Made by a program: the position numbers and the translations under genes
Assembly (NCBI GenBank): GCA_029259875.1
Contig: JAJDEK010000453.1
Span: 1 to 15,374, forward strand
Direction: 5' to 3'
From: Planctomycetaceae bacterium
GTDB lineage: Bacteria > Planctomycetota > Planctomycetia > Planctomycetales > Planctomycetaceae
DNA: 15,374 nucleotides
Shown here: in pieces, positions 3,360 through 14,208 of the stretch
Layout of the letters: every line of letters begins with the position of its first letter
Position numbering within the stretch: the first letter of the stretch is position 1
Notes under the pieces: generated by a model
Database searches by the model: none
Told to the model about the DNA's origin: nothing
Seen by the model: only the letters and a program-made list of their open reading frames with translations

Positions 3360-4514
3360 TTACAGAATAGCAGCTCCCTTGACGTCGATGCCTTTCAGAA
3401 CCATCTTCAACTCTTCTACATTTGGTGAAATTTCGAATGCATCTGCCCGACTGATGAATTCCCGGTCGATAAATCCTTTCAGGCTATCATTAAATTGCTG
3501 CATGCCTTCATCTTTACCAATACGGATGGCAGCAGCCAGCTTTTCGTCCTGTTCTTCAAGGATCAGTTTTCGCACGGTAGGGTTGAAGGTCATGATTTCG
3601 ATGATGGGTACACGACCTGGTGCATCAACAATCGTCTTCAAGAGTTTTTGAGCAACGATGGCGCGCATATTAAATGCCAGACTGCTCCTCAATGCTTTAT
3701 GCATATCTTGGGGGAACAAGTCGAGGATACGGCCAATACAACTGGGAGCGTTGGATGCGTGGATCGTACCGAATACCAGGTGGCCTGTTTCCGCAGCATG
3801 AATCGCGGTAGAAAATGTTTCCATATCACGCATTTCGCCTACGAGCATAATGTCGGGGTCCTGACGCACGGCATGTTTCATTGCAATTTCAAAGTCTTTT
3901 ACGTCAATACCGACTTCGCGCTGATTGATCAGGCACTTATTCTGAGTGTAAACGAATTCGATCGGGTCTTCAATCGTCAGAATGTGTTTGCGATAGTTGT
4001 CGTTGACCCAGTTCAACATCGAAGCAATCGTGGTACTTTTACCACTACCGGTGACGCCTGCGAGCAACACCATGCCCTGGTCAAATTTACAAAGTGATTC
4101 CATTACAGCAGGTAGATACAAGCCTTCAAAGTTCGGAATAGAACGTTCAATTTTACGGGAGACCATGCCGGGAACGCCCAACTGGATAAATAAGTTCACA
4201 CGAAACCGCCAAGGCACTCCTTCATATTCCACCACATAAGAAAAGTCAGCTCCTCCTTCATCATGGAAAATTTTTGTGTTTCGCTCATCCATCATGGGAG
4301 TGAATAGAGCCATCATCTGGTCTCGGTCGATGGGTTCCATCTGCAGTTCTCGCAGAGTCCCTTTGACGCGTAAGATTGGAGCTTTACCCACCTGCATATG
4401 CAAGTCGGAACCGCCGTGCTTGATCAACTGGCGGAACACTTTGTCGACATCATTTTCAGCATGCCCCGTCAAAGGGGAGATATCTTTCGGTTTTGCAGGA
4501 ACGGTTGTTGCCAT
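3360..4514 (-). CDS. pilT: Type IV pilus retraction ATPase PilT
   Basis: A 384-residue cytoplasmic hexameric AAA+ type ATPase of the secretion ATPase superfamily, PilT/PilU branch; it drives pilus retraction. The start is ATG at 4514 with GGAG 7 nt upstream. An N-terminal PAS-like domain includes GGSDLHMQVG (34-43). It is followed by Walker A GVTGSGKST (153-161), Asp box ILTIEDPIEF (178-187), Walker B LVGEMRD (224-230) and His box TGHLVFGTIH (243-252). The C-terminal TVRKLI (313-318) sits where PilT carries its AIRNLIRE-type motif, and GMQQFNDSL (337-345) is also PilT-like. Length is slightly above the usual 345-375. The paralogue PilU is the main alternative. No other pil gene is visible nearby, but four prepilin-like DUF1559 genes lie within 9 kb. 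Confidence 0.93.
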   Translation of the reverse strand: MATTVPAKPKDISPLTGHAENDVDKVFRQLIKHGGSDLHMQVGKAPILRVKGTLRELQMEPIDRDQMMALFTPMMDERNTKIFHDEGGADFSYVVEYEGVPWRFRVNLFIQLGVPGMVSRKIERSIPNFEGLYLPAVMESLCKFDQGMVLLAGVTGSGKSTTIASMLNWVNDNYRKHILTIEDPIEFVYTQNKCLINQREVGIDVKDFEIAMKHAVRQDPDIMLVGEMRDMETFSTAIHAAETGHLVFGTIHASNAPSCIGRILDLFPQDMHKALRSSLAFNMRAIVAQKLLKTIVDAPGRVPIIEIMTFNPTVRKLILEEQDEKLAAAIRIGKDEGMQQFNDSLKGFIDREFISRADAFEISPNVEELKMVLKGIDVKGAAIL

Positions 4515-4760: not shown

Positions 4761-5543
4761 TCAAGAAACGGTACTTTTAAAGCGAATTGGAATACCACGT
4801 TCGGCTAAATAACGCTTTGTTTCATCGACAGGATGAGTGCCATAATGAAAAATGCTTGCAGCCAGCGCCGCACTCGCATTTCCTTCAGAGAGGACTTGAT
4901 ATAAGTGTTCAGGACAGCCTGCACCACCGCTGGCAACCACGGGGATCGTGACTGCTTCTGCGACGGCTTTTGTCATCGGTATATCGTAACCGTCTTTGGT
5001 TCCGTCGGCATCCATCGAAGTTAATACGATTTCGCCTGCGCCAAGGTCTTCCATTTTTTGCGCCCATTCGACCGCTTCGAGTCCCGTTGGAACCCTCCCT
5101 CCATTGACATGAACTTCCCAGAACTCTTTTCCTGCTTTCTGGACTCGTCTCGGGTCAATGTTCACAACGATGCATTGGCTACCAAATCGTAATGCCGCTT
5201 CCTTGATTAATTCAGGATCTTTAACGGCAGAGGAGTTGATAGAAACTTTATCACAACCCGCACTCAATAAGGCGCGAATGTCATCCAAGGTTCGGATACC
5301 ACCTCCGACAGTAAGCGGCATAAAAATGACTTCAGATGTTCGTCGGACAATATCGAGAATGATCTCTCGTTCTTCGTGGCTGGCAGTGATGTCCAGGAAA
5401 ACCAGCTCGTCAGCTCCCTGTTCTTCATAGCGCGCGGCGACTTCCACGGGATCACCCGCGTCCTGAAGATTGACAAAGTTGACCCCTTTGACAACGCGGC
5501 CTGCATGGACATCCAAGCACGGGATGATTCGTTTTGCCAGCAT
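4761..5543 (-). CDS. hisF: Imidazole glycerol phosphate synthase cyclase subunit HisF
   Basis: A 260-residue (beta/alpha)8 barrel of normal length for the family. HisF pairs with the HisH glutaminase and converts PRFAR plus ammonia to IGP and AICAR in histidine biosynthesis. Both catalytic aspartates are in place: Asp11 in IIPCLD (6-11) and Asp130 in VVNID (126-130). Phosphate-binding loops are visible as VGGGIR (79-84) and VASGGAG (203-209). The start is ATG at 5543; its ribosome site is weak (TGGAA about 10 nt upstream). The gene shares its strand with pilT, 246 bases downstream. No other his gene is present. A decayed copy of its 5' end is found at about 8241-8478, so this gene marks one boundary of a local duplication. 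Confidence 0.97.
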
Positions 5544-5798
5544 TAGATAGCATTCCAGAATTTTAATGAAATGAGAAAGAAGTGAGTCAGTTTAAATTAA
5601 CGAAAGCTCGTTTGGTGACTCAGTTTATTTATGTAGTTGCTAGATTAAACGACTCTGATGATTTTCGATAGCGATTCAGTCTTTTTGCGTTTGATTGCGA
5701 AGACTTTGAATGGCTTCAGTTGCACTAGTACTGTTCAAGAAATCGTTTCCAGTGAACAGGAAGTTAATGATTAATACTTTTAAAATGTGTGAAAAATA
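5544..5798. other. Spacer between hisF and the first DUF1559 promoter
   Basis: This spacer must contain the leftward hisF promoter and the upstream part of the rightward DUF1559 promoter. TGAGTCA (5583-5589) and TGACTCA (5616-5622), each followed by GTTTA, form a short repeat that is both inverted and nearly direct. The stretch CAGTTGCACTAGTACTG (about 5721-5737) can fold weakly; at the matching place before the second DUF1559 gene there is a perfect hairpin (8531-8549). No reading frame was seen. Confidence 0.4.
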
Positions 5799-5826
5799 TT
5801 GACTGTCGCACAATGTTTTATATACT
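5799..5826 (+). promoter_or_regulatory. Sigma-70-type promoter of first DUF1559 module
   Basis: TTGACT (5799-5804), a 16-base spacer and TATACT (5821-5826). The same two hexamers with the same spacing recur at 8606-8633 before the paralogous gene, although the spacer bases differ. That conservation supports function. Initiation would be near 5833, leaving a leader of about 400 nt. Confidence 0.7.
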
Positions 5827-6230
5827 TTACAAATAATTCTTATGTATATTAATTATGTCATGTATATCAATGTTTATTGATGTTCAATAGGTGTAAATGA
5901 TTATTTTTGGCAGTGGTTTGTTGGTTTTAATGCTGACATATAAATTGTTTCCTATCTCGTTTTTTGTTCGATAGATCAGTGAATAATCATTCGACTGGTC
6001 AATATAAATGCTTCTAAGTCTAAATAAATAATTGTTTGTGTTTACTTCGAAATCCATTAATTCCTAGTGGAGGCGCTAACAGATTTAGGCAGTGTTTTTG
6101 AATTGATCTTTAAAAAGTGACCTCTCTTTTTTTTAAAGTCATTTCAATCGCTCGGTTTCTTTTGTTTGAGCCAGAACACGAAGTCGTAATTTTATTTCAT
6201 TCCTTATCGAATTTTTTCTGGAGGTGAAAG
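5827..6230 (+). promoter_or_regulatory. Long conserved 5' leader of first DUF1559 gene
   Basis: This is the untranslated stretch between the predicted promoter and the ATG at 6231. Several blocks are shared with the leader at 8634-9004: CATTCGACTGGTCA within 5975-6001, a block at 6039-6078 containing TGTTTACTTCG and TTCCT-GGAGGCG, ATTGATCT with TAAA near 6103-6115, and TTTGAGCC-GAAC-CGAA near 6165-6185. Between the blocks the two leaders diverge. The internal GGAGG at about 6069-6073 looks like a ribosome site but has no following start codon with a convincing frame. A structured or regulatory RNA is possible; no known riboswitch was recognised. Confidence 0.45.
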
Positions 6231-7235
6231 ATGCAACGGCACGTTAGAAAACGTGGGTTCACACTAATTGAACTCTTGGTAGTGATCGCCATCATAGCGA
6301 TCTTAATTGCTCTCTTATTACCCGCGGTACAACAGGCTCGTGAAGCTGCACGTCGCTCAACTTGTAAAAACAACTTAAAGCAAATTGGGCTTGCTTTACA
6401 CAACTACCACGATGCCCACTCTGCGTTCCCGTATTCTGTCTCACATGCTCACAGTATCACTTCTGGATCAGCAAGCCATCCTATTGGGCTTAACCACCGC
6501 GGGTGGTTGTTGCTATTGCCCTATATCGATCAGGCTCCCTTGTACAATCAGTTCAATTTTAGTTTAGCAGCAAGTACAGGAGCGCCCACTGCAAAGCCTG
6601 TCCCAGGTGGATTGCTGCCTGGATCACCAGGGAATGCGAATGATTTGGTGATCTCAAGGATCATCCCGGCGTTTATGTGTCCTTCAGACGATAACGTCAC
6701 ACATTACAATTCGACTACTAGCGCTCACTATGCTATTGCTCCCGGAAGTTCAACTGAAAAGGCAGCTCATACAAACTATGACTTCAGTGTTACACGGACT
6801 TCCAGTTCGGCAAGTATCTGGTCACAGGAGTCAAGAACAACTCGTCGTATGTTTGGTCTTGATGCTTCTAGTCGAATCCGAGACGTCAAAGACGGGATGA
6901 GTAATACCGTTGCGGTCGCAGAAACCACTCGTTTTACTTTCAACGGAGTGTCAGCTACATGGGGACATGCGAAGTGGGTTGGCCATGGCGTTGATTTAAC
7001 CTATTCACGTGGAATTAACTGGTGGCCCTGCTGTGCTTGGGATTCACCACCGTTTCAACGTCCCACAAATCCTGGAAGACTTGGCGACTGGTCTACAGTT
7101 GGCAGTCTCCATACGGGTGGGGCTCATGTGTTACTGGGTGATGGTGCGGTCAGATTCATCAGTGAAAATATTGATGCTACTACCCGTAATAACCTGGCCT
7201 ACATTTCAGATGGAAATCCGCTTGGAGAGTTTTAA
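6231..7235 (+). CDS. DUF1559 prepilin-like protein, module A
   Basis: A 334-residue protein. GGAGGTG 4 nt upstream fixes the start. It has a type IV prepilin/type II pseudopilin leader: charged MQRHVRKRG, cleavage expected after Gly9, then FTLIEL with Glu14 at the +5 position, and a hydrophobic helix to about residue 33. [16 protein letters not shown] (46-61) follows, the DUF1559 core with its conserved cysteine. The C-terminal H-X9-DG signature has His294 and Asp304-Gly305, and the protein ends in LGEF. DUF1559 proteins are greatly expanded in planctomycetes. They are presumed to be processed by a prepilin peptidase and displayed at the membrane or in a pseudopilus; the role is unknown. A hairpin and a lipoprotein gene follow at once. 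It is homologous at DNA level, including the upstream region, to the gene at 9005. Confidence 0.92.
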
Positions 7236-7254
7236 ACTCTAATCCGAACAAATT

Positions 7255-7289
7255 GACCACGGGTGATGTTTTCTTGCACGCCCGTGGTC
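7255..7289 (+). terminator. Stem-loop between DUF1559 A and its lipoprotein gene
   Basis: Perfect 9-bp arms GACCACGGG (7255-7263) and CCCGTGGTC (7281-7289) enclose a 17-base loop. It lies 19 bases after the DUF1559 stop and is followed by a pyrimidine-rich rather than pure T run. It could be a partial terminator or an mRNA-stabilising 3' hairpin. Confidence 0.6.
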
Positions 7290-7354
7290 TATCTCTCTTG
7301 CTTCCTTTTCTTAGCATTTCTTCTGAATTTCAGATTGGACAGGATATTAATCAG

Positions 7355-7795
7355 ATGTGGCACAATCGACTATTTTTGAGCTGTTTATTCTTTTGCTTGG
7401 TTGGATGTGGCGGTGCGAGCAAAAACACCCTGGAAGTCTACCCCGTTAGTGGGGCCGTAACCGTTGATGGAGAGGCATTACCGAATGTTTCAGTCACTTT
7501 TTTCCCTGAGAAATCCACTAAAGGCAACGGTGGTTTTGGTGCCACAGATGAGTCTGGTAATTTTACGCTTAAAGATCGTGATCAACGCGATGGTATTGCG
7601 GAAGGAACTTATCGAGTGTTGTTCACACGTCTGGTAAAGCGAGACGGAACCCCCATTGGAAATGATCAAATGGCAGCAGATGTCGAAGCCAAAAATTCAC
7701 TTCCAGAGAAATATAATGATCCTGGCCAATCACCAGTTACAGCCACTATTGCTAAATCAAATAAGCCATTCAAATTTGAGTTGAAAACGAAATAA
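7355..7795 (+). CDS. Lipoprotein with transthyretin/carboxypeptidase-regulatory-like fold
   Basis: A 146-residue protein. I chose the ATG at 7355, although the frame opens at 7253, because it gives a classic lipoprotein signal: MWHNR, a hydrophobic core and lipobox LVGC with Cys18. AGGA lies 10 nt upstream. The mature part is a small beta-sandwich pattern common in planctomycetes: VSGAVTVDGEALPNVSVTF (31-49), GTYRV (84-88) and a C-terminal LPEKY (116-120) followed by paired short strands. This resembles transthyretin-like/carboxypeptidase regulatory-like domains that follow DUF1559 genes in many planctomycete genomes. It is probably anchored in a membrane facing the periplasm and may be a partner of the upstream pseudopilin-like protein (inference from position). 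A 14-bp terminator follows about 85 bases downstream. A decayed C-terminal copy lies at 7990-8106. Confidence 0.85.
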   Translation: MWHNRLFLSCLFFCLVGCGGASKNTLEVYPVSGAVTVDGEALPNVSVTFFPEKSTKGNGGFGATDESGNFTLKDRDQRDGIAEGTYRVLFTRLVKRDGTPIGNDQMAADVEAKNSLPEKYNDPGQSPVTATIAKSNKPFKFELKTK

Positions 7796-7880
7796 TTGTC
7801 AGCTTTGGGATTTTGTTTTCTCTCAGACTCGCTTGAACTTCCAGCAAAAAAGAACACTTCGTTGCACTAGTCCCTTATGA

Positions 7881-7918
7881 AACAAGGACAAGCCTTAAAA
7901 GGCTTGTCCTTGTTTTTT
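7881..7918 (+). terminator. Rho-independent terminator of module A
   Basis: A perfect 14-bp stem (7881-7894 with 7901-7914), loop TTAAAA, and a T run through 7918. It closes the DUF1559 A/lipoprotein transcript. A weaker homologous copy is found at 8169-8205. Confidence 0.92.
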
Positions 7919-7989
7919 ACATTTTATGATGACTGTCTTTATGGAGTTCAAGTCATTCGCAATGGCAAGAGGTACCGTTTTTTAACAGC

Positions 7990-8106
7990 AGACCACAGTT
8001 ATTTCCAAAGAAATATACGAATTCCAATCGTGAAATGAATCTTACAATAGCGACGGTTAAAAGTCCTGCAGCGACGCTCGACTATGAGATCACCTCAAAA
8101 AAATAA
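7990..8106 (+). pseudogene. C-terminal remnant of a transthyretin-like lipoprotein
   Basis: One frame reads PQLFPKKYTN, then TIATVKSPAATLDYEI, ending SKK and a stop at 8104-8106. It aligns end to end with the C-terminus of the intact lipoprotein at 7355-7795 (NSLPEKYNDP, TIAKSNKPFKFEL, KTK-stop). At DNA level the match includes the bases around CTTCCAGAGAAATATA and the terminator that follows. There is no upstream start, signal peptide or N-terminal half; the frame is blocked by stops just upstream. It is best read as the surviving tail of a duplicated lipoprotein gene. Confidence is limited because the segment is short (about 37 codons) and diverged. Confidence 0.6.
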
Positions 8107-8168
8107 GCTGCTTTGATAGATGACCTCAGCCAAACACTCTTAGTTACCAATGTGCTGGTCCCTATTAT

Positions 8169-8205
8169 AACAAGGGCAGGACTTCTAAGGTCTACCCTTG
8201 TTTTT
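8169..8205 (+). terminator. Duplicated, partly decayed terminator
   Basis: AACAAGGG (8169-8176) pairs with CCCTTGTT (8195-8202), and GAC pairs with GTC in the inner stem after a small internal loop; a T run follows (8201-8205). Its placement 63 bases after the lipoprotein remnant and shared flanking bases (GGTCCCTAT against AGTCCCTTAT) mark it as a copy of the terminator at 7881-7918. Confidence 0.65.
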
Positions 8206-8215
8206 CAATGAAGGT

Positions 8216-8238
8216 CAACTCTCTTCTAGAGTTTCAAA
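8216..8238. repeat. Direct repeat, left copy
   Basis: A 23-base element with core TTCTAGAGTTTCAAA (8224-8238). It recurs at 8463-8485 with a single mismatch. The two copies bracket the hisF remnant with a period of 247 bases. The right copy overlaps the site of the former hisF start codon, so the left copy may be the start of a further lost hisF copy. Confidence 0.8.
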
Positions 8239-8240
8239 AG

Positions 8241-8478
8241 CAGTTCTCAGTGGTGAGAGGCAGGGAGATTACTTCTGGCTTTCGCTGGATAATGCTGCGA
8301 ATAATTTCGTATTCGTCAAAGCTGGCTGTAATTCCAGGAACACCAGTTCGCTGTCCTATTTCTTTAGAGAGTACGGTGACTTCTACGGGACCATCTGCGT
8401 CCTGAAGGTTGATAAAATAAGCTCACTTTACAACATGGCTTGTGTAGACGTTCAAAGAATCACAACTCTTTTCTAGAG
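8241..8478 (-). pseudogene. Decayed 5' fragment of hisF
   Basis: Read on the minus strand this segment aligns with the first roughly 80 codons of the intact hisF. Conserved pieces in order: VVK, then F-NLQDA, PVEV, KE-G, ITAS and EII. The N-terminal KR is also recognisable. An in-frame TGA (8423-8425) falls directly after VVK, and the residue matching catalytic Asp11 is Asn. There is one 3-base deletion inside and a small deletion near the former start. The similarity is clear from about 8270 to 8478 and fades to the left. It cannot encode a functional cyclase. Orientation and order relative to the downstream DUF1559 promoter match the intact hisF-DUF1559 A arrangement, showing it arrived as part of a larger duplication rather than as an isolated insertion. 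Confidence 0.88.
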
Positions 8479-8485
8479 TTTCAAA
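8463..8485. repeat. Direct repeat, right copy
   Basis: The right-hand copy of the 23-base element described at 8216-8238; the only difference is one C/T change at the eighth base. Confidence 0.8.
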
Positions 8486-8530
8486 TAACGTCTCTGATTT
8501 TCGATATTTTTTGCCATCTCTCATCTAGCT

Positions 8531-8549
8531 CCAACTGCGCTACAGTTGG
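8531..8549. repeat. Hairpin upstream of second DUF1559 promoter
   Basis: CCAACTG (8531-8537), a 5-base loop, and CAGTTGG (8543-8549) form a perfect 7-bp stem. It lies 56 bases before the -35 box. The equivalent site before module A keeps only a weak version. There is no T tract on either side, so it is not a typical terminator; an operator or a leftover is possible. Confidence 0.5.
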
Positions 8550-8605
8550 AAAGAAAGCCCTGTCTCTAAATTCAATAAATGATAAATATTATTTGCTGAA
8601 AAAGA

Positions 8606-8633
8606 TTGACTATCTAGCGTTGTTTCATATACT
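8606..8633 (+). promoter_or_regulatory. Sigma-70-type promoter of second DUF1559 module
   Basis: TTGACT (8606-8611), a 16-base spacer and TATACT (8628-8633). The hexamers and spacing are identical to the promoter at 5799-5826. Confidence 0.7.
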
Positions 8634-9004
8634 AAATTAATACTAATGTATATTAATAATTAAATGTATATTCTAAAATGTAGGTATTGATCACTAGTGT
8701 TGTTGTGTTTTAATGTATGAGGTAAGGTCAATAACTAGGACATCTCAAGACTTTATTCTTATTCAATACATCAGCGATCAGGCATTCGACTGATCATGAT
8801 AAATGTTTTTGTTTACTTCGGACCCCATAATTCCTGGAGGAGGCGATATCAAAGTGAGGCAGTAGTTTCAAATTGATCTCTAAAGCGACTTCAGCCTTAT
8901 GTTTTAAATTTATTTCAATGGCTCAGTATTGATTGTTTGAGCTGGAACGCGAATTCGTACTTATTTAATCTCATTTCTTAGCTAACTTATTCCGGAGGTG
9001 AAAA
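8634..9004 (+). promoter_or_regulatory. Long conserved 5' leader of second DUF1559 gene
   Basis: A leader of about 370 nt, a diverged copy of 5827-6230. Shared blocks: CATTCGACTGATCA inside 8770-8796 (same length as 5975-6001), 8810-8848 with TGTTTACTTCG and TTCCTGGAGGAGGCG, an ATTGATCTCTAAA block near 8873-8885, and TTTGAGCTGGAACGCGAA near 8936-8953. Preservation of patches while the intervening DNA drifts suggests selection on the RNA or DNA, but two copies are too few to prove it. Confidence 0.45.
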
Positions 9005-10063
9005 ATGCAACTGCATGTAAGAAAACGTGGATTCACTTTAATTGAACTACTAGTAGTGATTGCCATCATTGCGATCTTGATTGCTCTCTTATTGCCAGCG
9101 GTACAACAGGCTCGTGAGGCCGCACGCCGAACTGAGTGTAAAAATAACCTAAAACAAATTGGTCTTGCATTACACAATTATCATGAAACCTTCGGTTCTT
9201 TTCCGCCTGCACAAATTCGTGGTCGTAATAGTGGTGTTGAAAGGGGGAATGCTGCAAGTTGGGGGGCTATGATTCTTCCTTATATGGATCAAGCTCCGCT
9301 ATATAATCAGCTCAATTTTAACATCGGAATTTTTGAGGGAACCAACAAAACTGTGATAACTGGCTTGAGTGGTATTGATGCCGTTTTATGTCCCAGTGAT
9401 TCCGATCGAAATCCAACACGAAGCGTTCATAGTTCAACTACTGCGAATTACATGAGTTCAATGCCCAGTACTAGTTACGCCGGTAGTATAGGAGGATTCC
9501 AGAACGTTGATAGTACGTTCGCAGGATTGTCTGGAGGGTTTTTCACTTCTGATCCCGCACGACCCACCAAAATGTCAGGGTTTAAAGATGGAACTTCAAA
9601 CACAATTGCGGTAGGAGAAAGGTCATATCAGGTATGGACCGGTGGTTCATGGCTGGGAGTTCAGCATCATACATTTACGACAGCCAGTCCTGGAAATGAT
9701 ACTGCCTGCTGTTGGGATTGGTTCATGGCCGCTGGTTTATATCCAATCACCAACGAACTCAAGCCGGGAATGTCATCTCCGGCTTGGCGATTCGGGAGTC
9801 CTCATACGGGAGGAGCACAATTTCTAATGGCAGATGGTGCTGTCCGGTTCCTCTCGGAAAACATTGATCATATTGTTTCGCAAAGAAGCGCTTCGACTTG
9901 TGCCGCCCACGGCTGTGGCTGCGAGTGGAGTAATGATCCCGGTGCCTGTGCTACTGGAGTATCCGGCGGTGGCTGGAACGATAAAGCTTATTTGGCAAAT
10001 CATTGGGGAATTTATCAGCGATTACATCACCGAAACGATGGGTTGTCAGTTGGTGAATTTTAA
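9005..10063 (+). CDS. DUF1559 prepilin-like protein, module B, with Cys-rich C-terminal extension
   Basis: A 352-residue protein. GGAGGTG 4 nt before the ATG sets the start. The N-terminus MQLHVRKRG is followed by FTLIEL (cleavage after Gly9, Glu14), a hydrophobic helix and [16 protein letters not shown], as in module A. The H-X9-DG signature is His267 with Asp277-Gly278. Instead of the short tail seen in the other three copies (29 residues after DG), this protein carries 74 residues. The extra part includes [10 protein letters not shown] and GAC (Cys299, 304, 306, 315) plus a His/Trp-rich segment, then the usual GEF end. The extension could form disulfides or bind metal outside the cytoplasm. 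The middle of the protein differs strongly from module A, while the N-terminal DNA and the leader are similar. Function is unknown; it probably assembles or anchors through the pseudopilin helix. Confidence 0.92.
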
Positions 10064-10121
10064 ACATCTATTCCAACTCTATATTCTTTAAAAACAAAGT
10101 AATCTGTGTGCCTGTTTTTGG

Positions 10122-10159
10122 CCTGCATTTCTTTTCCTAAGGTGTGCAGGTTTTATTTT
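10122..10159 (+). terminator. Terminator after DUF1559 B
   Basis: CCTGCA (10122-10127) and TGCAGG (10145-10150) enclose a 17-base loop, extendable by two G-T pairs, and are followed by TTTTATTTT (10151-10159). The loop length equals that of the hairpin after DUF1559 A. It separates the DUF1559 gene from the lipoprotein gene at 10306. Confidence 0.6.
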
Positions 10160-10305
10160 AAGACATTCGGTACGGAATTTAGACTCTCATTGTAAATGAT
10201 GCTGAGGGACAGTCATCGATATATGTACTCGGAACGTCGAAAATTATCTGCCAGAGAATCCGGTTATTAAATCAGAGCATGCGATTACATTGGAAGGAAG
10301 AACTA

Positions 10306-10464
10306 ATGCTTAAAGAAATTCGAAAATTAGCGTGTGTGGCTTTGTTCTTTCCGTGCGTATTATCTGTCGCCTGCGGCAGTAGCAATAATGCGGAATCAAC
10401 TCAACCTGATCCGGGATTGAAAGCAGATGAATCTACTACGGAACTGGAGAAAACAGCAAAATGA
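10306..10464 (+). CDS. Small lipoprotein (52 residues), module B
   Basis: I chose the ATG at 10306 over the upstream in-frame ATG at 10279 because GGAAGGAAG precedes it at normal distance and it yields a compact lipoprotein signal. That signal is MLKEIRK, a hydrophobic core to residue 22 and SVAC with Cys23. The lipobox is slightly atypical (Ser at -3). The mature peptide is only about 30 residues, begins CGSSNNAES and is polar and acidic with no fold evident. It sits where modules A, C and D carry their lipoprotein genes, which supports it being real. A larger lipoprotein reduced by decay is the alternative. Convergent terminators follow at 10585-10617. Confidence 0.7.
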   Translation: MLKEIRKLACVALFFPCVLSVACGSSNNAESTQPDPGLKADESTTELEKTAK

Positions 10465-10584
10465 TGCCATCGGATTTCGAATGAAGTTTTGATCTTCTTT
10501 TATTTTGTATGTGGCGTTAGTGCGTGCACAAAATTGTTTTGTATTGCAGCGCAATTCACTTTATCGTCCTCTGACAAAATTCAA

Positions 10585-10617
10585 AAACCGGCTGCCCCAG
10601 ATTAGGGCAGTCGGTTT
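10585..10617. terminator. Bidirectional terminator between convergent modules
   Basis: AAACCGGCTGCCC (10585-10597) pairs with GGGCAGTCGGTTT (10605-10617) with one mismatch. On the plus strand it is followed by a broken T run; on the minus strand the A-rich left flank gives TTTTTG. It can serve both the plus-strand module B and the minus-strand module C. Confidence 0.8.
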
Positions 10618-10644
10618 AGTTTAAGATTCTAAAACAGTTAGAAA

Positions 10645-10671
10645 ATGAGAGCCAACTCATTAGCAGAATGA
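10645..10671 (-). terminator. Hairpin after mini-lipoprotein C
   Basis: In minus-strand reading, GCCAGCTCATT and AATGAGTTGGC form an 11-bp stem with one G-T pair and a 5-base loop, 12 bases after the stop. A homologous hairpin at about 12080-12109 follows mini-lipoprotein D. Confidence 0.65.
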
Positions 10672-10683
10672 GCTGGCTTATCA

Positions 10684-10836
10684 CTATTCTGGTGGAAGAG
10701 TGAGGGAAGCCTCATCTCCCACTTGGACAGGGGTTTCTTTATCCTCAGAAGGTTCTTTCGAGCTTCCACACCCCAAAATTGGTAACAGGAGGGCCATGCT
10801 TAAAAACAACAACCACACCTTGTGAAACTTTTTCAC
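10684..10836 (-). CDS. GTG-start mini-lipoprotein (50 residues), module C
   Basis: Too short for routine gene calling. AAGGAG lies 6 nt before the GTG at 10836; an in-frame ATG two codons upstream directly abuts AAGGAG, too close for normal initiation, so GTG is preferred. The peptide has basic residues (KKFHK), a hydrophobic core and lipobox ILGC with Cys23, giving a mature lipoprotein of 28 residues. The tail KETPVQVGDEASLTLPPE is nearly the same as that of the copy at 12116-12271, and the ribosome-site arrangement is identical in both. Conservation of frame, lipobox and tail between the copies argues strongly for translation. It follows the DUF1559 gene at 10932 after a hairpin and is probably its membrane-anchored partner. 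No known family was recognised. Confidence 0.8.
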   Translation of the reverse strand: MKKFHKVWLLFLSMALLLPILGCGSSKEPSEDKETPVQVGDEASLTLPPE

Positions 10837-10858
10837 AATCATCTCCTTAACATTTCAA

Positions 10859-10879
10859 CCAGATAAAAGATATATCTGG
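10859..10879 (-). terminator. Stem-loop between DUF1559 C and its mini-lipoprotein gene
   Basis: CCAGATA and TATCTGG form a perfect 7-bp stem with a 7-base loop, 22 bases before the mini-lipoprotein start. With no T tract it may reduce rather than end transcription, or protect the upstream mRNA. Confidence 0.5.
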
Positions 10880-10931
10880 AAACCAAACTAAATTTCAGAA
10901 GTATCTCCTCTAATCATAGAGAGAAAACGAT

Positions 10932-11987
10932 TTAGAACTCGCCCAATACCTGACTATCATTGATGCGCGTCAGTAAGGCGTAATTATCCTTGTCCATATT
11001 TTCACTCAGAAAACGAACAGATCCGTCTCCCAGTAAAACATGAATGCCTCCTTCATGGACGCTCGAAGCGACGTTTACATGATGCCTGTTGTCTGCGGTT
11101 GCACTAGAACCTGTCATACCCGGTACATGCACGGGGCCATTGATGTGGTAGCGTGCATTATTGATGTGGTTAGCATCAATATTGGGGTGATTCACAGCGA
11201 ATGTCCCATGGCGCCGATGTCCAGCCCAGATAGGAGTATAAGCATCATTGGTACGACCATTGATTGCACCTTCGCAAACGGCGATTGTATTACTAAGTCC
11301 ATCTTTGACATCTTTGATTTTGGAAGCGCCGTTAAAACCAAACATGCCTCGATATCGAATTCCGGTTTTTCCACTAGCCAAATTACTTGCACTCGTTTGA
11401 TAGATTGACCAGATTTGTCCCGTAGGCCATCCATTGCCATGTCCACCAGCACAGAACAGATAATTGGTTCTGGCATGATTAGCCATGTAGTTTGTTACAT
11501 CACTTCTAACTTCAATCGTCTCACCATCATCGGAAGGGCAGAGTAGAACGGGAAGTATTGTCTGGACTAGAGTGCTATTCGCATTGGGCCATCCACCCAC
11601 GACTCCAGTCCAACCACCAAGCGTATCCCACTGACCATTGGTGGCGATGTTGAGATTAAACTGATTGTAGAGTGGTGCCTGATCCATATAAGGTAGCAAC
11701 ATCAACCAGCCCGTGTGGTTTAATGCGAGCGTCGCACTCGAAATGGCGGTCATATTTGCGCTTCCCGCATTATTAGCGCCGAGAGGAAAGACGCGGTGAG
11801 TTTCATGATAATTATGAAGCGCCAGACCAATTTGTTTCAGGTTGTTTTTGCACGTACTGCGACGGGCGGCTTCACGTGCTTGTTGCACTGCCGGTAACAG
11901 GAGTGCGATGAGAATTGCAATAATGGCGATGACCACTAGCAATTCAATCAAAGTAAAACCATGCTTCTGCGAACGTCTCAGGTTCAT
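10932..11987 (-). CDS. DUF1559 prepilin-like protein, module C
   Basis: A 351-residue protein. The frame is open to 12065, but the ATG at 11987 has GAGGTG 6 nt upstream and places the prepilin leader correctly: MNLRRSQKHG, cleavage after Gly10, FTLIEL with Glu15. The hydrophobic helix and [19 protein letters not shown] follow. The C-terminal H-X9-DG is His311 with Asp321-Gly322, and the end is QVLGEF. It is a close paralogue of the gene at 12363-13436: from the NHARTNYLFCAGGHGNGW segment to the end the two are almost the same, while residues about 70-85 and 117-130 differ in sequence and length. It probably has its own promoter (12031-12059). It may be exported and displayed through the prepilin peptidase route; function is unknown. 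Confidence 0.92.
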   Translation of the reverse strand: MNLRRSQKHGFTLIELLVVIAIIAILIALLLPAVQQAREAARRSTCKNNLKQIGLALHNYHETHRVFPLGANNAGSANMTAISSATLALNHTGWLMLLPYMDQAPLYNQFNLNIATNGQWDTLGGWTGVVGGWPNANSTLVQTILPVLLCPSDDGETIEVRSDVTNYMANHARTNYLFCAGGHGNGWPTGQIWSIYQTSASNLASGKTGIRYRGMFGFNGASKIKDVKDGLSNTIAVCEGAINGRTNDAYTPIWAGHRRHGTFAVNHPNIDANHINNARYHINGPVHVPGMTGSSATADNRHHVNVASSVHEGGIHVLLGDGSVRFLSENMDKDNYALLTRINDSQVLGEF

Positions 11988-12030
11988 GATACACCTCTTT
12001 CGTAAAAAAATGAAAAAAATAAAAAAGTGA

Positions 12031-12059
12031 ATAGGAATCGGTAAAAGTATGTCTGTCAA
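12031..12059 (-). promoter_or_regulatory. Promoter of DUF1559 C
   Basis: In minus-strand reading, TTGACA (12059-12054), a 17-base spacer and TCCTAT (12036-12031). The -35 box is perfect and the -10 box is weak. The start of transcription would be near 12024, with a leader of about 37 nt. The matching place before DUF1559 D shows TTGAGT and TGTTAT at 18 bases. Confidence 0.5.
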
Positions 12060-12079
12060 AAACAAACATAAGGTTAAGA

Positions 12080-12109
12080 GCTAGCTCGTTACTGTAAAAT
12101 GAGCTGGCT
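12080..12109 (-). terminator. Hairpin after mini-lipoprotein D
   Basis: In minus-strand reading, AGCCAGCTCATT pairs with AACGAGCTAGCT with two mismatches. It is a decayed relative of the hairpin at 10645-10671 and lies at the same distance from the lipoprotein stop. Confidence 0.5.
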
Positions 12110-12115
12110 TGCTAC

Positions 12116-12271
12116 TTATTCTGGTGGAAGAGCAAGGGAATCTTCATTTCCCACTTGCACCGGAGTTTCATTATTTTCAGAAGGTCCTTTCGCGCCTCCA
12201 AAACACCCCGAAATTGGTAACAGCAGAGCTATGGCTATGGGCAACAACCATAGCTTTTGCGACTTTTCCAC
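12116..12271 (-). CDS. GTG-start mini-lipoprotein (51 residues), module D
   Basis: This is the paralogue of the gene at 10684-10836. The same AAGGAG with 6-base spacing precedes GTG at 12271; an in-frame ATG at 12277 is the alternative start. The signal contains KLWLLPIAIALLLP and lipobox ISGC with Cys23. The mature part is 29 residues and ends NETPVQVGNEDSLALPPE. Compared with the module C copy, the C-terminal 18 residues keep 14 identities, including ETPVQVG and LPPE, whereas the region just after the cysteine drifts. This suggests that the tail, not the linker, is the functional part. A strong 14-bp hairpin separates it from the DUF1559 gene upstream. Confidence 0.8.
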   Translation of the reverse strand: MEKSQKLWLLPIAIALLLPISGCFGGAKGPSENNETPVQVGNEDSLALPPE

Positions 12272-12302
12272 AATCATCTCCTTAATACTTGAACCAAGTA
12301 AA

Positions 12303-12340
12303 AGGCATATCTGAATTCAAAACGATATTCAGATATGCCT
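12303..12340 (-). terminator. Strong stem-loop between DUF1559 D and its mini-lipoprotein gene
   Basis: Perfect 14-bp arms (12303-12316 and 12327-12340) enclose a 10-base loop, 22 bases after the DUF1559 stop. In the minus direction the stem is followed by TTTTA. It is the strongest of the four intercistronic hairpins and should stop or thin out transcription before the mini-lipoprotein gene. Confidence 0.75.
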
Positions 12341-12362
12341 CGATAGTGGGCATCAACACAAA

Positions 12363-13436
12363 TTAGTATTCGCCTAATACTTGACTGTCATTGATTCGTG
12401 TCAGTAAGGCATAGGTATTTTTGTCCATGTTTTCTGTCAAGAAACGAACAGAACCGTCTCCTAATAAAACATGGATGCCTCCTTCATGGACGCTGGATGC
12501 AACTCCCACATGGTGCAACCTGTTAGCTGTTGCACTAGAACCGGTCATCCCCGGCACATGCACGGGGCCATTGATGTGGTAGCGGGCATTATTGATGTGG
12601 TTGGCGTCAATATTGGGGTGGTTCACAGCGAATGTTCCATAGCGACGATAACCTCCCCAGATAGGAGTGTAAGCATCATTGGTGCGACCATTGATGGCTC
12701 CTTCGCAGACGGCAATAGTATTGCTCATTCCATCTTTGACATCTTTGATCTTGGCAGCCCCATTGAAACCAAACATGCCTCGGTATCGAATTCCGGTACG
12801 ACCGTCTGCTAGATTGCTGGCACTTGTTTGATAGATGGACCAGATTCTTCCTCCAGACCATCCGTTCCCATGTCCGCCAGCACAGAACAAGTAATTCGTT
12901 CTGGCATGGTTGGCAATATAATTTGCAGCATCAGTTCTGACTTCAATCGTCTCGCCATCATCGGAAGGGCAGATCAGAACCGGCAGAATCGTTTGCACCA
13001 GAAGGCTATTGGCATTAGGCCATCCGCCTACGACCCCGGTAATCGAATTGGAAACCGTGCCAGAAGGGGGACCGAAGTGGCCATTGGTTGCAATGTTCAA
13101 ATTAAGCTGATTGTAAAGTGGTGCCTGATCCATGAAAGGTAATAGCATCAACCAAGCGGTGTGGTTTAATCCAAGAGTCGGTTCGACAGAGACGTCTTGG
13201 AAGTTCCCGCTGCCAATATTATTGGCGCCGATGGGAAAGACGCGGTGAGTTTCATGATAATTGTGTAGCGCCAGCCCAATCTGTTTCAGGTTGTTTTTGC
13301 AAGTACTACGACGGGCAGCTTCTCGTGCTTGTTGTACAGCGGGTAATAGCAATGCAATGAGAATCGCGATGATGGCAATCACCACCAGTAATTCAATCAA
13401 AGTAAAGCCATGTCTCTGTGAACGTTTCGGATTCAT
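12363..13436 (-). CDS. DUF1559 prepilin-like protein, module D
   Basis: A 357-residue protein. The frame is open to 13544, but AAAGGAG 7 nt before the ATG at 13436 and the position of the prepilin leader (MNPKRSQRHG, then FTLIEL, Glu15) select this start. It has the same architecture as module C: hydrophobic helix, [19 protein letters not shown], a central NYLFCAGGHGNGW segment, [18 protein letters not shown], and H-X9-DG with His317 and Asp327-Gly328. It ends in QVLGEY rather than the usual EF. It is a few residues longer than module C, mainly in the variable stretch after NIATNGH (GPPSGTVSNS). It is the first gene of the minus-strand pair of modules. Confidence 0.92.
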   Translation of the reverse strand: MNPKRSQRHGFTLIELLVVIAIIAILIALLLPAVQQAREAARRSTCKNNLKQIGLALHNYHETHRVFPIGANNIGSGNFQDVSVEPTLGLNHTAWLMLLPFMDQAPLYNQLNLNIATNGHFGPPSGTVSNSITGVVGGWPNANSLLVQTILPVLICPSDDGETIEVRTDAANYIANHARTNYLFCAGGHGNGWSGGRIWSIYQTSASNLADGRTGIRYRGMFGFNGAAKIKDVKDGMSNTIAVCEGAINGRTNDAYTPIWGGYRRYGTFAVNHPNIDANHINNARYHINGPVHVPGMTGSSATANRLHHVGVASSVHEGGIHVLLGDGSVRFLTENMDKNTYALLTRINDSQVLGEY

Positions 13437-14208
13437 GTTACATCTCCTTTGTAAAAAACAAAATAATGAGTATGAAAAAAAAAATTCTGTTGATAACAGC
13501 AGGAAAATATTCTGAAACTCAAAGGAGTTGTTTGTTAAAACCAATATTGCAGCAGAATCTAGAGAAGTAAGATTCGTACAAAAACAGCATAGATTTCAGC
13601 TAGAAAAATTGAATTGTTGTCATTAATGCTAAATGAATAGGTAGATTTACCCATTTTTTGAGTAAGCATATTAATGCGTTTGAGTTCATTAATGCACTAA
13701 TGATTAATTGAGTTTATAAGGAAAAATGTCAAAATGTCAAACAAATTCAATGGAAATTAAAAATAATCCTAAATTAGGATTGTTGCTTTAGTGAGGGGAC
13801 AAATCTTTCAGTAACTTAAAGCAAGTAAGTTTTTGGATGGCGTTCAAAACTCTTAACTTGCTTCTATGAAATGGATTCTGACCGAATCTAGGTATAGTTG
13901 AGACCAGTATCACGACACGATTTTCAGCGAATACTGCCGTTCATTTTGTTTCAAGAATATTGGTGCGATTGGGATTCTTGATGTCATTGGACTGTCATAG
14001 AACGTTTCCAAAAGACTTCAGTTTGGGTTAGGGCTGGCTTAGATCGAACAAAACTAGGGAACACGTACCAGCCAGCTTGTGGAAAGAACGGTGTTTGAGT
14101 CCAATAGAATTGACCTGCCGATGTTTGTGGGTCTTCAGAATACCAGCGAAATTGAAATCGGATTACAGTCTGTAATCGAGCCCTCTCATTAAACCGGAGA
14201 TTGAATAA
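13437..14208. other. Gene-poor divergent spacer with small repeats
   Basis: These 770 bases contain no convincing gene. A weak promoter for module D (minus strand) is TTGAGT at 13522-13517 and TGTTAT at 13498-13493, 18 bases apart. ATTAATGC occurs three times (13622-13629, 13670-13677, 13688-13695). ATGTCAAA is repeated in tandem near 13725-13740. Two palindromes are present: AATCCTAA-A-TTAGGATT (13765-13781) and GATTACA-GTC-TGTAATC (14161-14177). The latter lies 31 bases before the next gene's start. These could be operators; none matches a regulator site I can name. Confidence 0.5.
14161..14177 (+). promoter_or_regulatory. Palindrome ahead of the sialidase-like gene
   Basis: Arms GATTACA and TGTAATC are perfect, with a GTC centre, 31 bases before the ATG. 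The size and position suit a repressor operator or a small 5' hairpin in the message. Confidence 0.4.

Follow-up and report, generated by a model that had tools for sequence, protein, structure and literature searches.

The window analysed here, a contig of 15,374 nucleotides taken whole from a fragmented Planctomycetaceae assembly (3.59 Mb, 589 contigs, 74% complete; G000 below), carries in order a pilT-like gene, hisF, a DUF1559 gene (gene 1), a small lipoprotein-like gene, a fragment of hisF, a second DUF1559 gene (gene 2) and two more (genes 3 and 4). We compared it with 16 relatives from the same genus, Gimesia, among them the single-contig genomes G002 and G003 (99% complete). The features on which the analysis draws are the following:

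3360-4514, minus strand: pilT-like gene (label is a reading of the sequence)
4761..5543, minus strand: intact hisF (260 aa), a gene of the type that gave rise to the fragment (PF00977, E 5.2e-87)
5799..5826, plus strand: promoter-like TTGACT-N16-TATACT, copy 1 (sigma-70-like motif)
5834..5856, plus strand: AT-rich palindrome-like box, copy 1 (pattern match, 1 mismatch)
6231..7235, plus strand: DUF1559 prepilin gene 1, 334 aa (PF07596 and PF07963)
7355..7795, plus strand: small lipoprotein-like gene, 146 aa, after DUF1559 gene 1 (label is a reading of the sequence)
7879..7916, plus strand: terminator-like hairpin 3' of the lipoprotein-like gene (17-pair stem)
8083..8211, plus strand: 3' flank of the lipoprotein-like gene, second copy, including a hairpin (the homology possibly starts within the coding end, at 8050)
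8206..8454, minus strand: decayed hisF start fragment, hisF nt 29-279 (nhmmer profile matches)
8455..9004, plus strand: region upstream of gene 2, apparently a copy, with homology to its counterpart before gene 1 (alignments)
8606..8633, plus strand: promoter-like TTGACT-N16-TATACT, copy 2 (sigma-70-like motif)
8638..8660, plus strand: AT-rich palindrome-like box, copy 2 (pattern match, 0 mismatches)
9005..9130, plus strand: putatively captured leader, with gene-1-type sites to 9115 (codon 37) and gene-2-type sites from 9130 (codon 42)
9005..10063, plus strand: DUF1559 prepilin gene 2, 352 aa, read as a chimera (PF07596 and PF07963)
10932..11993, minus strand: DUF1559 gene 3 (domain match)
12363..13436, minus strand: DUF1559 gene 4 (domain match)

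All four DUF1559 genes are full-length and combine a PF07963 N_methyl leader with PF07596, the architecture of DUF1559 prepilins. Intact HisF is 92-97% identical at the amino acid level in 15 of the 16 relatives, the assembly of the remaining one (G004) holding only the 3' end of the gene. The lipoprotein-like gene has no match in a Pfam search, and its homologues in other Gimesia likewise come after DUF1559 gene 1. Between hisF and a sialidase-like gene (5544-14208 in the window; the label is again a reading of the sequence), the seven genomes that reach the latter hold 2 to 4 DUF1559 genes, whose order and strand vary among genomes, marking this interval as a place of rapid turnover. G014 has six DUF1559 matches in the available stretch beside hisF, and in G001 (locus L131, about 7208-8187 in window orientation) a DUF1559 gene is seemingly in two pieces, the first frame being 191 codons long, which makes it a candidate young pseudogene.

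The fragment is a real, decayed piece of hisF, as a sequence-only reading of this DNA had proposed. A profile of the window's hisF and 15 other Gimesia hisF genes matches 8454-8206 with an nhmmer E-value of 1.9e-27, and a 13-gene profile from which the window, G002 and G003 were left out gives 3.8e-26. Aligned as nucleotides, a check suggested by that reading, 8241-8478 and the hisF region score 68 with 140 of 206 columns identical (68%), far above 500 dinucleotide shuffles (mean 10.6, maximum 17). With intact HisF protein as the query, residues 8-79 match 8249-8461 (46%, E 8.7e-10) across one TGA, and the translation contains VVK, NLQDA, PVEV, ITAS and EII in the order that had been described. 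The match is also to HisF and not to HisA or another TIM barrel: when the conceptual translation was entered with X at the breaks, its sole NCBIfam match at E up to 1 was TIGR00735 HisF (E 3.6e-8; 33 bits vs a cut-off of 294.55), and PF00977 was found weakly in Pfam (E 0.053, below cut-off).

The extent given earlier, HisF residues 1 to about 80, is right in naming the start of hisF; its end at 80 has to be moved, as the profile extends the match to about codon 93 (8206), with the final stretch less certain. Both marks of decay that had been listed are present, an in-frame TGA at the position of Gly20 and a change of Asp11 to Asn, and two small deletions that had been missed (2 nt and 1 nt) shift the frame. 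About 83 codons are thus matched, with the TGA and two frameshifts, and a full-length HisF frame (~250 residues) is absent. Asp11 and Asp130 are the catalytic residues of HisF; in the fragment the former is Asn and residue 130 lies beyond the match. Differences between the fragment and the G002 hisF number 22, 20 and 29 at the first, second and third codon positions (73 sites each), as against 1/84, 0/83 and 32/83 between the intact hisF genes of G000 and G002, so the codon-position bias is lost in the fragment, as for a pseudogene. A plus-strand open reading frame of 92 aa (8198-8476) overlaps the fragment.

We assessed the spread of the fragment in 16 genomes with readable DNA upstream of hisF, the window included. 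In G002 a weaker hisF remnant (profile E 3.7e-6) follows the lipoprotein-like gene and precedes DUF1559 gene 2, and the equivalent place in G003 gives a hint only (E 0.16, not better than a distant match in G019 at E 0.34). Synteny supports G003: the stretches of G002 and G003 that hold the remnant are 88% identical over 799 columns, and hisF, gene 1, the lipoprotein-like gene and gene 2 follow in identical order in both. Both stretches are more decayed than the fragment in the window and carry deletions. No fragment was detected in the available upstream stretch of the other 13 genomes, which is short in G006, G007 and G011 (1.5 to 3.4 kb); the suggested look at orthologous loci yielded a remnant in one relative and a hint in another. 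A DNA search of 17 Gimesia genomes with the fragment found, besides itself, only intact hisF sites and was too weak for the G002 remnant that the profile detects. G000, G002 and G003 form a clade in a tree of three concatenated proteins (ultrafast bootstrap 100), and their three fragments group together (ultrafast bootstrap 99).

Fragment, upstream region and leader form a single run that is collinear with the hisF start, the intergenic region and DUF1559 gene 1. The alignment of the window's two DUF1559 upstream regions extends from the hisF start past the promoter motif to the start codon, and the non-coding DNA collinear with the hisF piece continues through the promoter to the leader, as in a segmental duplication. 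It had been pointed out that the fragment lies before the second DUF1559 gene as intact hisF lies before the first, and the collinear homology shows that the fragment reached this place as part of a copied segment.

The further claim, that the fragment records how the pseudopilin family expanded here, does not stand. Orthologues of the gene 2 body occur in seven other Gimesia (G014, G016, G009, G010, G001, G005 and G013) at 75-85% identity, the window's own body being 83-84% identical to those of G014 and G016, and no hisF fragment was detected in these seven loci. Duplication of the hisF segment therefore did not create gene 2, and we rejected this explanation; what the segment appears to have supplied is a control region and a leader. 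In six of these seven genomes the orthologue adjoins hisF.

The DNA before gene 2 has a different affinity from the body. The 200 nt upstream of gene 2 resemble the region upstream of gene 1 in the same genome (z 60.6 in G000, 15.2 in G003 and 11.6 in G002) and are unrelated to the upstream regions of the seven orthologues (z -1.1 to 2.3 in 21 comparisons of the three carriers). The ribosome-binding sequence is AAGGAGCA in all seven gene 2 orthologues and CCGGAGGTGAAAA in all three captured genes. Past the leader, window genes 1 and 2 are 39% identical. Upstream region, ribosome-binding site and the first ~37-42 codons of gene 2 are all gene-1-type in G000, G002 and G003. Because upstream region and body differ in orthology and the informative sites switch, we read gene 2 as a chimera whose joint probably lies in the prepilin leader, at codons 37-42. 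Informative sites were those that separate a gene-1 type (G000, G002, G003 and G014) from a gene-2 type (G014 and G016). Up to 9115, four of the five in window gene 2 are of gene-1 type and the fifth is neither, and past codon 42 gene-1-type sites recur (1 in G000, 4 each in G002 and G003). The chimera is supported most strongly by the upstream region and less by the coding sites, which are few. We rejected a simple insertion of gene 1 and the lipoprotein-like gene between hisF and gene 2, because the DNA upstream of gene 2 is of gene-1 type.

Decay of the hisF piece has not extended to the promoter motif of the copied segment, which is still exact in both copies. The two TTGACT-N16-TATACT sites are the best two of 7 promoter-like sites in 5500-9100; as shuffles give 9.0, the number of such sites is no sign by itself. 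The motif is exact in both copies of G000, G002 and G003, at two per genome with no other match there. Genus-wide enrichment is absent, the exact pattern matching 13 times in 17 Gimesia genomes and its reversed control 15 times. The captured putative promoter would drive gene 2.

Just downstream of the promoter motif lies the AT-rich box, whose core is self-complementary at 16 of 22 positions. Its pattern (≤3 mismatches) has 20 matches in the 17 Gimesia genomes vs 2 for the reversed control, and all except one (in G015) are followed on the same strand, after 185-430 nt, by a GFTLIE-type prepilin leader. The pattern was drawn from 9 of the 20 matches, and 10 of the 11 remaining ones precede such a leader. 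For the box genes of G003 (seven) and G000 (three) PF07596 is confirmed by position; the nine in G002, G016 and G007 are identified by their leader. Among 120 family genomes, 6 of them Gimesia, the box has matches in G000, G002 and G003 and none in the 114 genomes outside Gimesia. The bodies of the seven G003 box genes are no more alike (mean 0.38 over 21 pairs) than those of 28 other DUF1559 genes (0.39 over 378 pairs), which belong to the 30 highest-scoring among the 131 PF07596 matches of that genome; none of these 28 has the box at ≤5 mismatches. A rough chance estimate for all seven G003 box sites is 5e-19, assuming 120 genes and including four G003 sites that had been used for drawing the pattern.

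At its other end the fragment directly adjoins the second copy of the lipoprotein-like gene's 3' flank. A flank profile that includes the window, G002 and G003 matches 8050-8208 (nhmmer E 6.7e-12), and one from five other genomes matches 8083-8211 (E 1.5e-7). By its sequence the left joint, which sets hisF codon ~93 against this flank, could be that of a tandem duplication, which it resembles, and the second flank suggests that more than one unit once existed and was then pruned. Protein-level searches for a lipoprotein remnant before the fragment returned nothing significant (best E 0.36 overall; tblastn E 1.4 for the relevant stretch), and a terminator scan reported only the first hairpin (7879-7916), the one in the second flank being seen by eye. 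G002 and G003 have a single hairpin stretch adjoining the remnant, as against two flank copies in the window. The fragment is also flanked by a 23-nt direct repeat on the minus strand, an imperfect palindrome with 1 mismatch between its copies (8216-8238 and 8463-8485). This repeat was not found at ≤5 mismatches in 19 relative loci scanned, and its 17-nt core has two more matches in the genome at 2 mismatches, with 3 for the reversed control.

We consider it quite probable that the fragment is a duplication scar that accompanied capture of a promoter and leader by the pre-existing body of gene 2. The copied segment would have run from inside hisF, via the promoter and box between hisF and gene 1, into the prepilin N-terminus of gene 1, with the hisF piece as a non-functional passenger at its far end. 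In the ancestor of G000, G002 and G003 it would have been placed before the gene 2 body, replacing the latter's own upstream region, ribosome-binding site and first ~37-42 codons. A plausible order of events, reconstructed from the sequence, begins with tandem duplication of the unit from the hisF start through promoter, gene 1 and lipoprotein-like gene to the terminator, after which the leaders of the copied gene 1 and of gene 2 would have recombined, with loss of the second gene 1 body and lipoprotein-like gene. As the right-hand joint falls within the prepilin leader, which is highly conserved, homologous recombination there is likely. In its simplest two-step form this route does not predict a second lipoprotein-like 3' flank. 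The sequence-only reading is thus partly supported, having been right about a duplication and wrong about what the duplication made.

The same arrangement might have arisen without a tandem intermediate, if repair starting from the gene 2 leader had copied ~1 kb of the gene 1 side as far as hisF and rejoined illegitimately. G014, in which gene 1, the lipoprotein-like gene, gene 2's own upstream region and gene 2 follow in this order, indicates that one step could make the joint, and the right end in the conserved leader fits as well; the second lipoprotein-like 3' flank is left unexplained, however, and suggests that an extra copy once existed, so we regard this course as possible but rather unlikely. 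We give less credence to an incoming segment (hisF, gene 1 and lipoprotein-like gene) that recombined from another Gimesia before a resident hisF and chimeric gene 2, leaving the fragment as a remnant of the resident hisF. Such an origin would accord with the six of 15 relative loci in which the first gene detected next to hisF is gene 2. It would also fit the poorly resolved placement of the fragment within Gimesia in the hisF tree (support 34-57 at neighbouring nodes) and blastn scores that are higher for hisF of G011, G007 and G008 (79.7, 70.7 and 68 bits) than for that of its own genome (66.2). Fixed alignment, however, puts the fragment closest to the hisF genes of G002 (67.6%) and G003 (66.7%), with its own at 63.0%, and an earlier chimera would be needed in addition because the DNA upstream of gene 2 is of gene-1 type.

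A function for which the fragment is retained, such as antisense or regulatory action on gene 2, is very improbable. The fragment is still recognisable and stops about 125-150 nt short of the promoter motif, but the stretches in G002 and G003 are more decayed and have deletions, changes are spread over all codon positions, and Rfam at gathering thresholds gives no match to a known RNA element in the window. The fragmented state of the assembly would allow for an artefact; this and chance resemblance are nevertheless negligible and were rejected, given an alignment score far above shuffles, a gene order shared with two single-contig genomes and the remnant in G002.

The proposed capture of a leader by gene 2 fits into a wider pattern among the 54 DUF1559 genes of the hisF loci, in which clusters by upstream similarity disagree with clusters by body. 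By upstream region, body cluster 3 separates into two groups, with the seven orthologues in one and the three captured genes in the other; this is the only polarised case. Upstream cluster 1 fronts bodies that belong to clusters 1, 4 and 5 and whose identities are 0.36-0.43 in the cross pairs listed; bodies that change faster than control regions could mimic this discordance. A comparison in ten-codon windows of gene-3/4-type bodies gave no clear switch point, so the case for repeated swaps comes from cluster discordance. We tentatively suggest that control region and leader of Gimesia DUF1559 genes may be a module that is repeatedly exchanged between unrelated bodies by recombination in the leader. 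Promoter and box, so far in this genus only, might then define a small pilin regulon that recruits bodies, the hisF scar marking one recruitment.

Partial segmental (tandem) duplication can leave a truncated pseudogene of a neighbouring gene, and the truncated, decaying copy of a flanking housekeeping gene here likewise marks the end of a copied unit; the difference is that the body of gene 2 was not made by the copy, its control region and leader having been replaced. Formation of chimeric genes with promoter capture is also a recognised concept, which the locus resembles in that an existing body gains the promoter, ribosome-binding site and N-terminus of another gene, whereas in Gimesia the joint falls in the conserved leader of prepilins that form a very large family. 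The 131 PF07596 matches in G003 offer a large substrate for repeats of such leader capture. In Neisseria pilE, silent promoterless body cassettes are copied at a high rate into one expressed locus. Antigenic variation of this kind (compare PMC12871193) shares with the present case a conserved pilin N-terminus, a variable body and recombination between family members. In Gimesia, by contrast, a promoter and leader would have reached another complete gene over evolutionary time. All four DUF1559 genes of the window are full-length with N_methyl leaders.

The genes described here agree with known DUF1559 / SBP_bac_10 prepilins of Planctomycetes in combining N_methyl with DUF1559, in their many paralogues and in nearby genes for secreted proteins. 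According to excerpts of the literature, Planctomycetales genomes each hold at least 41 prepilin-motif genes, and two-domain genes are often flanked by signal-peptide genes (PMC8567305). Excerpts likewise report 68 paralogues of the DUF1559 family in P. limnophila, two of them essential (PMC10632474), and 74 in R. baltica, of which some show regulation under salt, cold and heat stress (PMC2754498), and count these prepilins among the largest gene families of Planctomycetes, with function unknown (PMC10632474, PMC8567305). Neither an exchange of control regions nor a shared promoter box is described in these passages. As scars go the hisF fragment is of an ordinary kind; what makes it interesting is the capture of a promoter and leader that it marks in a very large and unexplained family. 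Polarised capture of this type shows concretely how the expression of paralogues could diverge, and the box provides a handle for finding a regulator and a co-expressed subset of the otherwise unmanageable DUF1559 family.
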